A stretch of DNA of 64,000 bases from Peribacillus sp. FSL P2-0133 (GTDB taxonomy: Bacteria > Bacillota > Bacilli > Bacillales > DSM-1321), in NCBI RefSeq assembly GCF_037975445.1, contig NZ_CP150254.1:4276001-4340000 (forward strand). Reading direction: 5' to 3'. Every line of letters begins with the position of its first letter. The stretch's first letter is position 1. Position numbers and translations under genes: made by a program. Positions 21,734 through 58,398 of the stretch are shown here, in pieces. Below the pieces are notes generated by a model, which ran no database searches, was not told the DNA's origin, and was given only the letters and a program-made list of their open reading frames with translations.

Positions 21734-21766
21734 TAACATACAAAACAGAAAATCAGTAATAATATG

Positions 21767-21862
21767 TTCCCTCCGCTGGCATCATCCAGATCAGGTTCAA
21801 AGAGTCAGCATCTAAAGGATGCAATCTCAGCCAGCATACTGGCCCCCCTACATTTCTCGCAC
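21767..21862 (-). ncRNA. TPP riboswitch (THI element)
   Basis: On the minus strand: GGCTGAGATTGCATC, then GAACCTGATCTGG and ATGCCAGCGGAGGGAA, the conserved THI-box segments in the right order. An intrinsic terminator follows, so high thiamine pyrophosphate should stop transcription of the uptake operon. Confidence 0.95.
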
Positions 21863-35631: not shown

Positions 35632-37170
<1,539 letters not shown>

Positions 37171-37198
37171 ATTTAATCATTTTATTATTGTTAATAAA

Positions 37199-52648: not shown

Positions 52649-55492
52649 TTAATTAACATGTAAAAATTCCAGTTCTTCTTCCGTAATCAATACATCCCTG
52701 GGCCTTGAGCCCCTGGATTCGGAAACGACTCCCCGTTGCTCCATCATTTCTATTAGACGCGATGCACGGTTATAACCGACACGGAAGCGCCTTTGGACAC
52801 TCGATGCAGATGCCGCCTGCTGGCTCACGACAAATTCACAGGCCTCGAAAAACAGTTCATCCGCATCTTCCGTGACTTCGGCCCTGTTCAGCAAGTCTTC
52901 CTGTTCAAACAGGTATTTCGGCTGCTGCTCCAGTTTAACATGGTTTACGACTTGATCGATTTCTTCATCACTCACGAAAGTCCCTTGCAGGCGCACCGTT
53001 TTCGAAGAGCCGTTTTCAGCGAATAACATATCTCCTCTTCCCAATAATTTTTCTGCACCGCCGCTATCGATGATTGTACGTGAGTCGACTTGTGAAGAAA
53101 CCGAAAAAGCGATCCTTGTCGGGATATTTGCCTTGATCAATCCAGTTATGACATCGACTGAAGGTCTTTGAGTGGCTACAATCAAATGGATGCCGCAGGC
53201 ACGGGCCTTTTGCGCAATCCGGCAAATCGCTTCCTCTACATCAGCCGGGGACATCATCATTAGATCTGCAAGCTCATCGATGATCACTAGGATATAAGGC
53301 AGCTTGCTTGAATATTGACCGGCTTTTTCCGCTTGGTCATTAAAGCGGGTGATATCACGCACACCGGCATGTACAAACAATTCATAACGCCGTTCCATCT
53401 CCTCTACAGCCCATTTCAACGCAGCCGTAGCCGCTTTTACATCGGTTATGACTGGACTGACCAAATGCGGGATCCGGTTATATGGGGCGAGCTCGACCAT
53501 TTTCGGATCGATCAACAGTAATTTCAATTCCTGCGGCGTCGCTTTATACAGCAAGCTGACCAGCATCGTGTTGATACATACACTTTTCCCCGATCCCGTT
53601 TGCCCGGCTATCAATCCATGCGGCATCTTTCTCAAATCCGTGATAATCGGCTGACCGGATATATCGAGTCCTAAAGCCACGGCAAGCGGTGATTCATGCT
53701 CTTGAAACTCAGTACTTTCCAAAACCTCACGCAAAAATACCGGTTTGCTTTTCCTGTTCGGAATCTCGATGCCAATTGTATGTTTACCCGGAATAGGCGC
53801 TTCCATCCGCATATCCTGAGCAGCAAGGCTTAATTTGATGTCATCCATCAGGTTCGTCACTTTATTCACCTTCACTCCCGGCTCCGGATGCACCTCGAAA
53901 CGAGTTACTGCCGGTCCTTGAGTGACATTGACGACCTTTGCACGGACATTGAAATTTTTCAATGTCTCATCAAGTAATAAAGTCTGTTCCTCGAGCCACT
54001 CATCATCATGCACAGCATAAGTGGGAGGTGTCAGCAATTCGATATTCGGAAACACATAATATGGATTATCCTCCGCTTCCACGGAGCCAAAAACTGCAGG
54101 GGTATCGCCCTGGCCACTTTCTGCTGCCGCCTCTGTATAAACTGCTTCTTGATACCCATTTCCGGAAATGGGGGATTCCTGTTCCAAGAGCGGCTTAGTG
54201 ACCGGGCTGGAACCAATATTGGATTCAACTGTATTTACAGGCACGGCGGCGATTTCCGAACCAGCCTTAGTGTCCAAAAAGGTTGGTGTAATGACCGGAG
54301 TCCCCTCTTTCGGCATAACTCTGCCTTCCTCTTGTTTCCGTTCAGGAATGGCGGATGGTTTCGCTTGTCCTGTCTCCGTTTCAGCAGCATCATTCATTGG
54401 TCGCTTATCAGGGGAAACTACTGCCCTTTCCGAATTAAGGCTTTTTTTTTCCGGCATCATTTTATTCATGAAGCTGTTTTTTTCCCGATCTTGCTTAAGC
54501 ATCATCACATTAAATGGGATATGTTTTTTCGGACGTTTAGGCTGCACTTCAGGTATTGCCTCAGATGGATCTTCAGGCAGTGTCCCTTGACTAACGGATG
54601 GTTGATTTGATTGTGCAGCAACCTCCCCAGGAACCGATATAGCTTCAGGCGGGGTGTCGTCCGCCTGTTCCATGATGGATACAGCGACTTCGCGTCCAAA
54701 ATCGACCTGGTCCTGTTCAATAGCCTCTTTTTCCACCGCAGGCTCAATTATGTCAGGCTCGCTTACTGCTTCTTCTGGCAGTGACTCAATGGAATTCCTA
54801 CGAAAGAAAGCGGGTATCTCCGAATCTTCCCTTTTTTTTTCAGCTTGTTCCGGTATAAGAACGGATGGTTCTATCGTCATTTCCTCATGTGACACTTCTT
54901 TTGAGATTTCAGGGATCGGTACCGGAATCTCGATATCGGGTCCTTCTTTTTTAAGGATGGGCATTTTGCTTTCTAATTCATATTCGACAATTTCTTCAGA
55001 AGGGACTGTTTTTTTTTCCGGACGACGGAACCCATAAATGGGTGAAGGGATTTCCGTTGGGCGGAATGGAGTATTTGACGGGACTATTTTTGAGGTTTCC
55101 TCCCGGTCGAAGCTTCTCCGTTTTGGTTCAGTATCCCTTACAGGCCTTCTCGTTGTTTCTTTGGTCACATTCTTCCCCTGTTTGGGTTCACTTTCTTCCC
55201 TGTTTCTTTCCCTAGGCTTTCTTTTATTCTGCTCCCGGTCTGGAATGAGCGGAAACTTGAACTGTCCTTTTGGATATTGAAACAGGATTTTCGTATCCGG
55301 GTCTGGCGTCTGGGACATTTTTTCCACTTTTTGATTGTAAACCTTTATTTCTTCTTTCTTTGACTTAGAAAGCTTTGAAAAATCCATTTTCTTTAATGTC
55401 TCTTCATCAAGCGGCTCATCTATAATAATTTCTTCGATTTCAATAATTTCCTCTGCTTGGAACCATTTTTTCATCTTATTTAGCCATTTCAA
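52649..55492 (-). CDS. sftA: DNA translocase SftA (FtsK/SpoIIIE family)
   Basis: About 947 aa. Soluble, septum-associated translocase that clears DNA before division closes; no membrane helices. The N-terminal 480 residues are a Pro/Glu/Ser-rich, low-complexity linker. Then FtsK core: Walker A GQTGSGKS (near 616), Walker B region LPYILVIIDELADLMMM, and a C-terminal winged-helix gamma domain. Start uncertain: TTG 55492 fits AAAGAG spacing; GTG 55501 is the other choice. The ytpR gene that follows it in B. subtilis is not here. Confidence 0.93.
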   Translation of the reverse strand: MKWLNKMKKWFQAEEIIEIEEIIIDEPLDEETLKKMDFSKLSKSKKEEIKVYNQKVEKMSQTPDPDTKILFQYPKGQFKFPLIPDREQNKRKPRERNREESEPKQGKNVTKETTRRPVRDTEPKRRSFDREETSKIVPSNTPFRPTEIPSPIYGFRRPEKKTVPSEEIVEYELESKMPILKKEGPDIEIPVPIPEISKEVSHEEMTIEPSVLIPEQAEKKREDSEIPAFFRRNSIESLPEEAVSEPDIIEPAVEKEAIEQDQVDFGREVAVSIMEQADDTPPEAISVPGEVAAQSNQPSVSQGTLPEDPSEAIPEVQPKRPKKHIPFNVMMLKQDREKNSFMNKMMPEKKSLNSERAVVSPDKRPMNDAAETETGQAKPSAIPERKQEEGRVMPKEGTPVITPTFLDTKAGSEIAAVPVNTVESNIGSSPVTKPLLEQESPISGNGYQEAVYTEAAAESGQGDTPAVFGSVEAEDNPYYVFPNIELLTPPTYAVHDDEWLEEQTLLLDETLKNFNVRAKVVNVTQGPAVTRFEVHPEPGVKVNKVTNLMDDIKLSLAAQDMRMEAPIPGKHTIGIEIPNRKSKPVFLREVLESTEFQEHESPLAVALGLDISGQPIITDLRKMPHGLIAGQTGSGKSVCINTMLVSLLYKATPQELKLLLIDPKMVELAPYNRIPHLVSPVITDVKAATAALKWAVEEMERRYELFVHAGVRDITRFNDQAEKAGQYSSKLPYILVIIDELADLMMMSPADVEEAICRIAQKARACGIHLIVATQRPSVDVITGLIKANIPTRIAFSVSSQVDSRTIIDSGGAEKLLGRGDMLFAENGSSKTVRLQGTFVSDEEIDQVVNHVKLEQQPKYLFEQEDLLNRAEVTEDADELFFEACEFVVSQQAASASSVQRRFRVGYNRASRLIEMMEQRGVVSESRGSRPRDVLITEEELEFLHVN

Positions 55493-55920
55493 AACTATCA
55501 CTCTTTCTACATCTGTAGTTATGTAACTAATTCTACCAGTTATTTTAAAAATATCGAGAAAATTTAAGCTGAATTGGGATTAGCATCTTTTTTTTTTATC
55601 GTATTCCTGCTAACTTAACGTATTTCGCAGAACTCCTACCCTATTAAACCCCTTTTGGAATGAGTTTAAACCTATTAATTGCGAAATAACATTAGCCCCT
55701 AGTCTACTATTTAAATAAAACACCGCTGTTAAATCGCGTTTACAAAGAGATTAAGTTTTCATGCAGCCTTTGAAGCAGACTGGCCAATTCATTGCAACAT
55801 CCTTCATGAAACCGCCGACGGCATCCAAATACCTGCCGCAACCCATAAAACACCGTTCGTTAATACCGAACGGTGTTTTGTGGGTTTCTGCGTTTTTTTT
55901 GCAAACAAAGACCAAAGGTA
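55493..55920. other. Intergenic sftA-M20 region
   Basis: 428 bases. Holds the M20 gene terminator (55846-55884) and a stretch at 55760-55850 with no supportable ORF. B. subtilis has ytpR in this interval; no trace of its tRNA-binding domain was recognised. Confidence 0.5.
55846..55884 (-). terminator. Terminator of the M20 gene
   Basis: AAAACACCGTTCG/CGAACGGTGTTTT perfect stem with T run, near the end of the M20 gene. Confidence 0.9.
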
Positions 55921-57114
55921 CTATTTCCATTCATAAAAACTGCATACAACCTGCGCCACTGATTTGGAAGCGATCAAAAGGGCATCCTCATCAATGTCGA
56001 ATTTAGGATGGTGATTGAAATATGCCTTCTCCACCCCTTTCGGTTTACAGCCAATGTAAAAGAAGCAGCCAGGAATCTTTTCTGCATAATACGAAAAATC
56101 TTCTGAACCAGAGAAAACCGGAAATTCCACAACCTTCTTAATATCTTTGTCATCCATGCTTTCCAGGCTATTTTTCACGAATCGCGTCAGTTCAGGGTCA
56201 TTATATAACGGAGGATAATCGGGAACATATGTAAGTTCGCACTGAACATCAAATTCCGTTTCTACCCCTTTAACGATCCGGTGGATTTCCTTATCGATCA
56301 GCTGTTGGGTCTCTGCTGTCATATAACGAACATCCCCTTCAATTTCTATACGATCTTTAATGACATTAAAGCTTCCTTTTCCATCGAAGGAGCCGATTGT
56401 GACTACACCCATATCAAAAGGGTTCAAGCGACGGCTGATTACGGTTTGTACGGCTGTCACGAAATGGGCGCCTGCCACAATGGTATCATTAGCCATATGC
56501 GGGGAGGATCCATGGCCGCCTACACCCTTTATCGCTAACTTGAAATAGGTCCGTCCAGCCATCGAATAGCCGCCGCGATACCCGACAACCCCTGCTGGAT
56601 GAGAAGGAAATAAATGGATTCCAAAAACAGCATCCAGTTCATCCAAAAACCCTGATTCCATAATGCTTTTGGCTCCTCCGGGGGGTGTTTCTTCTGCATG
56701 TTGATGAATTATTTTGATCGTACCTGATAGGGAATCTTTCAGCTCATTGATGCAGTCTGCCAATACCAATAAATAAGCGGTATGCCCATCGTGTCCGCAG
56801 GCATGCATGACACCTTCATTTTTTGAACGGAATGGAACCTCCGCTTCTTCTGAAATCGGCAGTGCATCGAAATCGGCACGGAGACCTATCGTTTTCCCTG
56901 GTTTTCCACCTTCGATCGTCACGATGATCCCTAATCCATTTCCTACATTCGTTTGAATCGATACATCTTTCCCCTTATAAAAATCAATGATATATTTTGC
57001 CGTTTTCTCTTCTTTGAAGGATAGCTCCGGATTCTCGTGTAAATGACGGCGGATTTGAACCATTTCCCCTTTACGGGCTTCAAGCATGTTCATTAATTTG
57101 CTTTTCACATTCAC
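55921..57114 (-). CDS. M20 family amidohydrolase
   Basis: 397 aa from GTG 57114 (GGGGGAG is 7 bases upstream). M20D amidohydrolase of the hippurate / N-acyl-amino-acid / IAA-amide type: metal motif MHACGHDGHTA (near 106), HQHAEETPPGGA (near 140), and GSEDFSYYAEKIPG near 355. Cytosolic, no signal peptide. It is the only gene behind a tandem glycine riboswitch, so its substrate is likely to involve glycine, for example an N-acylglycine or a glycyl compound; that is inference. Confidence 0.9.
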   Translation of the reverse strand: MNVKSKLMNMLEARKGEMVQIRRHLHENPELSFKEEKTAKYIIDFYKGKDVSIQTNVGNGLGIIVTIEGGKPGKTIGLRADFDALPISEEAEVPFRSKNEGVMHACGHDGHTAYLLVLADCINELKDSLSGTIKIIHQHAEETPPGGAKSIMESGFLDELDAVFGIHLFPSHPAGVVGYRGGYSMAGRTYFKLAIKGVGGHGSSPHMANDTIVAGAHFVTAVQTVISRRLNPFDMGVVTIGSFDGKGSFNVIKDRIEIEGDVRYMTAETQQLIDKEIHRIVKGVETEFDVQCELTYVPDYPPLYNDPELTRFVKNSLESMDDKDIKKVVEFPVFSGSEDFSYYAEKIPGCFFYIGCKPKGVEKAYFNHHPKFDIDEDALLIASKSVAQVVCSFYEWK

Positions 57115-57203
57115 GATTATTCTCCCCCATTATTTCAAGTTGATTAGCATATTAGTAAGTTCCATGTTCGCTGTAAACCTTCTGTATGTAAAAAGCCAAA
57201 TAA

Positions 57204-57255
57204 AAAAGGACAGAGAAGGGTTCCGTAAACTTACCGCTCCCTTCTCTGTCCTTTT
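57204..57255 (-). terminator. Expression-platform terminator of the glycine riboswitch
   Basis: GGACAGAGAAGGG…CCCTTCTCTGTCC, 13 perfect pairs, then TTTTTTATTT on the minus strand. Its 5' arm is the 3' strand of aptamer 2's closing helix, so glycine binding should prevent it from forming. Confidence 0.9.
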
Positions 57256-57432
57256 ACCTGAGAGATTAACTCCATTTTGGTCATGGAGGTTTCCCCGTTG
57301 GTGGCACACTTCCTGCGCGCTCTCCAGAGTTGCGTCCAGCTGCGGTACCATTTACCTGAGAGATTTGCTCCAAGGGATATTTTTGGAACTTGCTCCTTCG
57401 GTGGCTCAATGCTTTGCACTCTCCCACAACGT
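57245..57432 (-). ncRNA. Tandem glycine riboswitch
   Basis: Two aptamers in a row on the minus strand: aptamer 1 at about 57345-57432 (GGGAGAGTGC, CACCGAAGGAGCAA, ATCTCTCAGGTAAA) and aptamer 2 at about 57245-57335 (CTGGAGAGCG, GTGCCACCAACGGGG, ATCTCTCAGGTAAAAGGACAGAG). The order and the conserved TCTCAGGTA tails match the gcvT-type glycine switch. A transcription-on switch is expected. Together with its terminator it fills the 477-base gap. Confidence 0.95.
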
Positions 57433-57543
57433 TCATCCGCTCGTTATATTGTTTTATTCCATATTTTCAAAATATTACAATTATATTATCACCGATTAAA
57501 AAATAAATATCAACTCTAAGGGTCATAAACTCTATTAAACTTT

Positions 57544-57591: not shown

Positions 57592-58398
57592 TTATTGTTC
57601 ACGCTTTTTGTTTTTACCCATAATGAAGATGGGCTCCAACTCATTTTCTTCGTAAAGAAATGATAGAGCCGTTATTGGAACATGACCGCTGGCAAAGAAG
57701 CTCATCGCCATTTGCGCAAGAATATCATAGCCCGTATCATTCTTCACATCGGCAATGATGATGACGTCCTGATGGGGAATGGCCACAGCCATGGTTCCCT
57801 CGATCTTGTCCTTCATTTCCCGAAGCCATGATTCATTCAGGATCCTGCTGGCATCATAACCATCATTCGTGTTCAAAAAATAAAATGCATTACCTGCAAC
57901 GATATCCGACTTCATTTCAGTGGAGAGGGAACGGGCATTAAAAAGGGCAATTTCACGGATCCTGTCACCCTGCCAATTTTCCCGTTGAATCATCTTTTCA
58001 TCTATAAGACGGTAGGTTTTCCCTAAATCAAGGGCATAAAAAATCCGGGTTTCAGCCGTATGCTCATCGAATAAAAATGGATTTCCTTCTTCCGATTCCA
58101 TTGGAAAGGAGGTCGAGCGGATGACTGGGAAAATGAATTTCTCCTTGCCTTCCATGCTATGTTCTCCCCCCATCACATTCAGGGCCTCTTCCACGTAATA
58201 GATAATTTCATCGATGGCCTTTTCCTGTACGTTTTCATAGTTAGCAAGTACAGGAGGCAACTCGATGGTGATACCCTTCCCGGTCTTCACATTTTCCACC
58301 CGTAACGTATCTTTCTTGCTATCGAATTTAAATGTGCGATTTTCATCTTTTAAACGTTCCTTCAGGATATTTTTCAGCTTCGTGCTGTCCATTTTCAT
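57592..58398 (-). CDS. ytpQ: DUF1444 protein YtpQ
   Basis: 268 aa, GAGGAGGG upstream of ATG 58398. A DUF1444 protein with no signal peptide or membrane helix and no catalytic motif that I can name. Same length as B. subtilis YtpQ and same neighbour (ytpP). Function unknown. Confidence 0.9.

Follow-up and report, generated by a model that had tools for sequence, protein, structure and literature searches.

The tandem glycine riboswitch upstream of gcvT in Bacillus subtilis is a terminator-based ON switch, as described in the available text of PMC5666159, and the genes assigned to glycine switches in the accessible part of a 2013 regulon survey (PMC3766115) belong to glycine metabolism, glycine transport and serine metabolism. 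Leaders related to other amino acids have been placed in front of M20D-type hydrolase genes: in C. difficile a lysine riboswitch, a yfcC antiporter gene and an M20D gene lie in one apparent unit (PMC11477304, available part), and amhX/COG1473 genes of the Bacillota stand behind SAM or T-box leaders (PMC12452182, available part). In the portions of these papers at hand, the C. difficile unit and the amhX/COG1473 genes are the nearest precedents for the locus described here. A fourth relevant system is the S. aureus transporter NorC (7d5p/7d5q; PMC8257674). The accessible text of that paper reports that NorC gave no visible norfloxacin protection in E. coli, calls the natural substrates of NorB and NorC unknown, notes that most NorC relatives are accompanied by an amidohydrolase, and suggests that this partner enzyme might act on whatever the transporter carries; the pairing of NorC with an amidohydrolase is itself already in print there. 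Among the matches listed from the open-access literature, in the parts of those papers available, no glycine riboswitch was reported before an M20 or a NorC-like gene. The phrase "glycine exporter" had no match in the open-access literature searched, and the terms MFS, peptidase, transporter and efflux are absent from the main text of PMC6944388.

We analyzed a 64,000-nucleotide stretch of the genome of Peribacillus sp. FSL P2-0133 (hereafter the window), in which a glycine riboswitch precedes one M20D amidohydrolase gene (Table 1). Like the B. subtilis gcvT switch (PMC5666159, in part), it combines two aptamers with a transcription terminator, and the gcvT leader of the same Peribacillus genome has the shared CAGAG element; unlike the B. 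subtilis switch, which controls glycine cleavage, it stands before a single M20D gene. With the C. difficile unit it shares the combination of an amino-acid riboswitch, a transporter and an M20D gene in one apparent unit, although the ligand there is lysine and the transporter YfcC, whereas the switch here is for glycine and the transporter a different one. The amhX/COG1473 genes are similar in placing an M20D-type gene under an amino-acid-related leader, but the ligands differ, and glycine is absent from the list given for that gene in the accessible part of PMC12452182. The resemblance to S. aureus NorC (7d5p/7d5q; PMC8257674, in part) lies in the amidohydrolase partner and in the transporter that is missing from the window, which is of the NorC family.

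The original prediction, a full two-aptamer glycine switch with an antitermination platform, was borne out. Both aptamers exceed the RF00504 gathering score of 32, and the pair scores 94.0 bits (E 1.6e-18) on the tandem model RF03166, which lies below that model's gathering cut-off of 110, as does the gcvT switch of the same genome at 96.4 bits; the window's aptamer pair is far beyond chance. Covariation over 12 switches is modest, with both sides changed in 3 of 49 predicted pairs, so the identity of the switch rests on Rfam. The terminator, a perfect 17-pair hairpin whose loop exceeds the limit of 8 set in a consensus scan, was absent from the list given by that scan. Within its 5' arm lies CAGAG (57248-57244), which is also able to pair with CUCUG (57329-57325) and so close the base stem of aptamer 2. 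With CUCUG and the 3' arm of the terminator as rivals for CAGAG, closure of aptamer 2 by glycine is expected to block termination. The anatomy thus supports an ON-type switch, and by analogy with B. subtilis gcvT it would probably act as one in vivo. The promoter scan returned 5 sites against a mean of 4.4 in shuffled sequences, and the promoter-like site 5' of the switch is therefore argued mainly from its position. Rfam also placed a T-box leader (36956-37172, minus strand, 153 bits) and a TPP riboswitch (21751-21859, minus strand, 73.9 bits) elsewhere in the window.

Table 1. Features of the riboswitch-M20D unit and its neighbors (window coordinates)
Feature	Position	Strand	Evidence or remark
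ytpQ (DUF1444)	57592..58398	-	Upstream neighbor fixing the locus; kept in the other 15 genomes examined
Promoter-like site TTGATA-17-GATAAT	57485..57513	-	10/12 consensus matches; 5' of switch
Glycine aptamer 1	57333..57436	-	RF00504, 51.8 bits, E 9.2e-8 (Rfam)
Glycine aptamer 2	57244..57329	-	RF00504, 43.1 bits, E 1.8e-5 (Rfam)
Intrinsic terminator	57204..57255	-	Folding; 57255-57239 paired with 57220-57204, then U's
Short leader	57130..57203	-	Alignments with G029, G034 and G024
Shine-Dalgarno-like GGGGGAG	57122..57128	-	Sequence
M20D amidohydrolase, 397 aa, GTG start	55921..57114	-	TIGR01891, PF01546/PF07687
Strong hairpin after M20	55840..55886	.	20 pairs, loop 7; listed by the scan as terminator-like on the + strand
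sftA	52649..55501	-	Downstream neighbor fixing the locus; kept in the other 15 genomes examined

The switch is followed by a single M20D gene, as had been proposed; no further gene occurs before the strong hairpin, which probably also terminates the minus-strand unit. The ORF scores 350.4 bits on TIGR01891 against a curated cut-off of 153.75, and its closest structures are 4ewt (E 3.5e-143), 1ysj, 1xmb and 6slf. Four candidate metal-site motifs, HACGHDGH (104), HQHAEE (137), GIHLF (165) and NHHPKF (367), presumably bind the metal; specificity for a glycine conjugate is not readable from the M20 sequence. The flanking genes, which we take to be ytpQ and sftA, fix the locus. In B. subtilis the corresponding site is occupied by ytpR, which raised the idea that M20 had replaced that gene locally. 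YtpR is about 200 aa in length, and no tRNA_bind ORF of that size was found in the window's own genome or in any of the 36 genus genomes; third tRNA_bind copies in five of these have open frames of just 99-134 aa. The absence of ytpR is thus genus-wide, and we dropped the notion of a local swap.

The ytpQ-sftA site was compared in 16 of the 36 genus genomes, the window's included, and all 16 have an M20 gene there. The switch stands directly before M20 in half of them (window, G021, G016, G020, G023, G007, G001 and G034), six have M20 without a switch (G031, G018, G019, G004, G014 and G030), and one (G024) has a degraded switch that falls below Rfam detection. In the remaining genome, G029 (Bacillus sp. 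ISL-34, locus L053), a 462-aa MFS gene separates the switch from M20, all three lying between ytpQ and sftA. No NorC-like gene lies beside M20 in the window. Traces of such a transporter were found elsewhere: in G034, 19 codons of its C-terminus separate the switch from M20 (tblastn 52.6%, E 0.001), with 79.8% identity at the DNA level over 104 bp, a span that includes the M20 start, and in G024 the alignment shows a transporter tail retained before M20. The short leader of the window resembles the leader before the G029 NorC-like gene up to about ACTTACTA and then passes into the last codons and stop of the G029 transporter (TTGAAATAA, 57138-57130). At the site in G018, G019, G014, G004 and G030, no MFS remnant was found beyond the M20 start. 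In G008 the M20 match contains a stop. On the simplest reading, the lone M20 looks like the derived state, with the transporter gene lost; this is read from the G029 operon, the G034 remnant, the G024 tail and the junction of leader and last codons in the window, although the window holds only a very short stretch of that gene, a point against this reading.

The best PDB match of the G029 transporter is 7d5p (E 5.3e-162), which we take to be NorC and whose database molecule name is "Drug transporter, putative"; the next matches, EfpA, QacA-type and EmrB, follow at about 1e-29 to 1e-28, placing the protein in the NorC family. The accessible text of PMC8257674 describes a glutamine and a lysine (Q27 and K398) as unusual among drug pumps. 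The residues so numbered are a Q and a K in the 7d5p chain, correspond to Q17 and K388 of the G029 transporter, and are invariant in all eight homologues aligned. The DHA2 relatives of the transporter are mostly named efflux proteins. At an E of 1e-120, with 46 of 82 candidates scored, the window's own genome yields no further NorC-like gene. Searching the order for the transporter (249 genomes, six candidates scored in each) gave eight matches in six genomes, and none of the eight loci has a glycine aptamer at the Rfam threshold. A lone CCGAAGGAG motif at locus L190 was considered and rejected as a glycine aptamer.

We then asked what accompanies M20 more widely, using the 80 closest named M20 loci, a set in which several come from one genome and records nearest the window's genome may be missing. 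A same-strand NorC-like gene lies upstream of the matched M20 at 46 loci and is lacking at 34; of these genes, matched at 62-100% identity, 43 are uninterrupted, one has an internal stop (L076) and two are in pieces (L071 and L127). Glycine switches before M20, for which the original prediction had suggested a survey, recurred at 4 of the 80 loci, all Peribacillus-type with M20 identities of 96-98%, and the other 76 have no glycine aptamer at the Rfam threshold. A class-level M20 search (398 genomes, four candidates scored in each) found 13 genomes including the window's own; among loci L206-L219 a glycine aptamer occurred at one of 14, L218; this is the second M20 of the window's own genome, and the permease switch lies downstream of it. 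Of 46 upstream neighbors found, 42 were scanned (those of L054 and L055, where the neighbor is ytpQ, and the short ORFs of L115 and L124 were omitted), and the commonest named family is an AryK-like regulator (17 of 42), a setting unlike that of the window; the available part of PMC8257674 likewise mentions no glycine riboswitch for S. aureus NorC. Downstream, PF03458, whose Pfam name "Gly_transporter" is a family label and not an assay, is the most frequent family in the 33 co-directional genes whose starts lie no more than 350 bases past the end of M20, occurring at 4 of the 80 loci in four species. It also adjoins M20 in three Peribacillus genomes; of the 19 genus genomes scanned, no others have a second PF03458 copy. 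Gene context independent of the switch thus supports a tie between this M20 family and glycine. In this respect the proposed role of M20 in glycine balance is plausible; the accompanying picture of a unit built as a switch for a lone hydrolase is not supported, given the G029 transporter and the G034 remnant.

Five glycine-switch loci with eight aptamer matches occur in the window's own genome, and that of the window alone directly precedes an M20. The gcvT leader, the leader ahead of a second glyA-gcvT-gcvH-gcvPA-gcvPB operon and one CycA-like permease leader also carry the core CUCUG ... AGGACAGAG ... terminator; a second permease leader is without this platform. The genome's second M20 (73% identity, G000:C1:2768352) has broken NorC-like pieces upstream (L152 8221-8723; L151, L154) and precedes a cluster of tandem switch, CycA-like permease, switch and second glyA/gcv operon. 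In other genomes of the genus, three NorC-like genes (one in G010:C4, two in G022:C12) each directly follow a tandem glycine switch and lack an M20 downstream. This makes the transporter the apparent primary target, with M20 in the role of a co-transcribed partner; the switch seems, from these arrangements, to go with the transporter and not with M20 as such. Of the 14 NorC-like genes found in the genus, the ten left after these three and that of G029 had no glycine aptamer in the flanks scanned. The two switch-transporter units of G022:C12 (L156) lie about 10 kb apart with transporters 95% alike, and one follows an amino-acid permease gene and an isochorismatase-type gene. At two other loci (L167 in G028 and L168 in G006), a 57-58% relative of M20 has an unrelated MFS gene on one side and the gene for a fused L-serine dehydratase on the other.

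Glycine switches with the same terminator core also occur behind a gene for an agmatinase-family ureohydrolase at five loci (L164 in G023, L165 in G001, L166 in G017, L159 in G034 and L161 in G004), where no co-directional ORF longer than 95 aa was found in the next ~0.7 kb and no transporter remnant behind the switch. These orphan switches are tandem, L166 being apparently one aptamer fused to the terminator, and several have decayed aptamer cores. At three further loci (L180, L182 and L183, in G011, G010 and G022) a similar ureohydrolase gene is followed by a NorC-like gene; the family was checked for the L182 and L164 proteins. The five orphans resemble switches left without their transporter. 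One lead is that guanidinoacetate may be another source of glycine, since its conversion to glycine and urea would suit the glycine context of these loci; guanidinoacetate together with a glycine riboswitch had no match in the open-access literature searched.

We favor, at a probability of roughly 0.6, a glycine-induced NorC/M20D module from which the transporter has disappeared and whose M20 probably frees glycine from a conjugate. Rising glycine would be sensed by the two aptamers, the base stem of aptamer 2 would close with CAGAG, and with the terminator blocked RNA polymerase would read on. The ancestral operon would have encoded a NorC-family MFS transporter and then its usual M20D partner; with the transporter gene gone from the window's lineage, the switch would now drive M20 alone. 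The enzyme would hydrolyze a glycine-bearing amide (an N-acylglycine, a dipeptide or similar), so that the inducer glycine reports the product. From gene context, a glycine compound is a plausible substrate. Points against the favored reading are the six genomes of 16 without a switch at the site, the degraded or damaged switches of G024, G001, G020 and G021, the 34 of 80 loci that lack a NorC-like gene and the 76 that lack a glycine aptamer at the Rfam threshold. The transporter may have exported glycine or imported a conjugate; ON control does not prove export, as a CycA-like permease gene of this genome also stands behind an ON-type platform. It is accordingly possible, if on the unlikely side, that the system is one of product-induced uptake, in which the NorC-like protein imports a glycine conjugate for M20 to cleave and surplus glycine is not exported. 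The conserved transporter-amidohydrolase pairing, the processing role suggested in the available text of PMC8257674 and the ON-type permease leader all speak for uptake, but the efflux names of the DHA2 relatives and the three switch-transporter units without M20 speak against it.

Sequence divergence bears on whether the unit is maintained. Across seven lone-M20 genomes (window, G021, G016, G020, G023, G007 and G001; the more distant G034 was omitted), the switch has a mean divergence of 0.059 against 0.103 and 0.104 for the flanking leaders, and M20 diverges by 0.050 at all sites against 0.173 at fourfold sites. By this measure the enzyme is clearly kept and the switch moderately so. Damage does occur where it would be expected to have an effect: G001 has changes in the core of aptamer 2, and the terminator of G020 and G021 has an A.C mismatch. 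Such decay, the loss of the switch in G031 and G024, the switch-transporter units that lack M20 and the orphan switches elsewhere in the genus with no intact gene close behind would all fit vestigial control, whereby the switch served the transporter only and M20, with a substrate unrelated to glycine, came under it as a by-product of the loss. We consider this unlikely, as the switch diverges less than its flanks and Gly_transporter genes lie beside M20 where the switch is absent.

The loss of the transporter, as opposed to its gain, is what the remnants suggest, and the position of G029 makes a gain possible. In a four-gene tree, G029 is nested within the lone-M20 clade as sister to G023 and G024; a loss therefore requires allele exchange or recombination, or repeated loss, the alternative being a regain in G029. 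This nesting, the eight genomes with the switch directly before M20, and the deeper genus members G018, G019, G014, G030 and G004, in which M20 has neither switch nor transporter, would agree with a switch recruited for a lone M20 serving glycine balance and a transporter inserted later in G029. That course of events seems quite improbable to us: G034, a genome that falls outside the window's close clade in the tree, retains the transporter C-terminus, G024 keeps its tail, and transporter-M20 pairs are commoner elsewhere (46 of 80 loci). Very improbable is expression of M20 mainly from its own promoter, with the switch mattering little, since the promoter-like match between terminator and gene (TTTACA-17-TAATAT, 57177-57149) has only 9 of 12 consensus positions, such sites are no more frequent than in shuffles, and relatives differ in one hexamer or the other (for example G007 and G001 in the second, and G016, G020 and G021 in the first).

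The favored history of a glycine-induced module without its transporter suggests how loss of the leading gene of an operon can give its riboswitch a different effective target. Glycine switches before a transporter, before a transporter with M20 and before M20 alone also supply a concrete candidate ligand. Because the natural substrates of NorB and NorC are called unknown in the accessible text of PMC8257674, glycine becomes a testable lead, and it is possible, though less likely than not, that NorB/NorC-type transporters and their M20D partners naturally act on, or yield, glycine or a small glycine conjugate. If so, these transporters, chiefly known as putative drug pumps, would belong to glycine homeostasis, and the riboswitch would be a natural label of their ligand.
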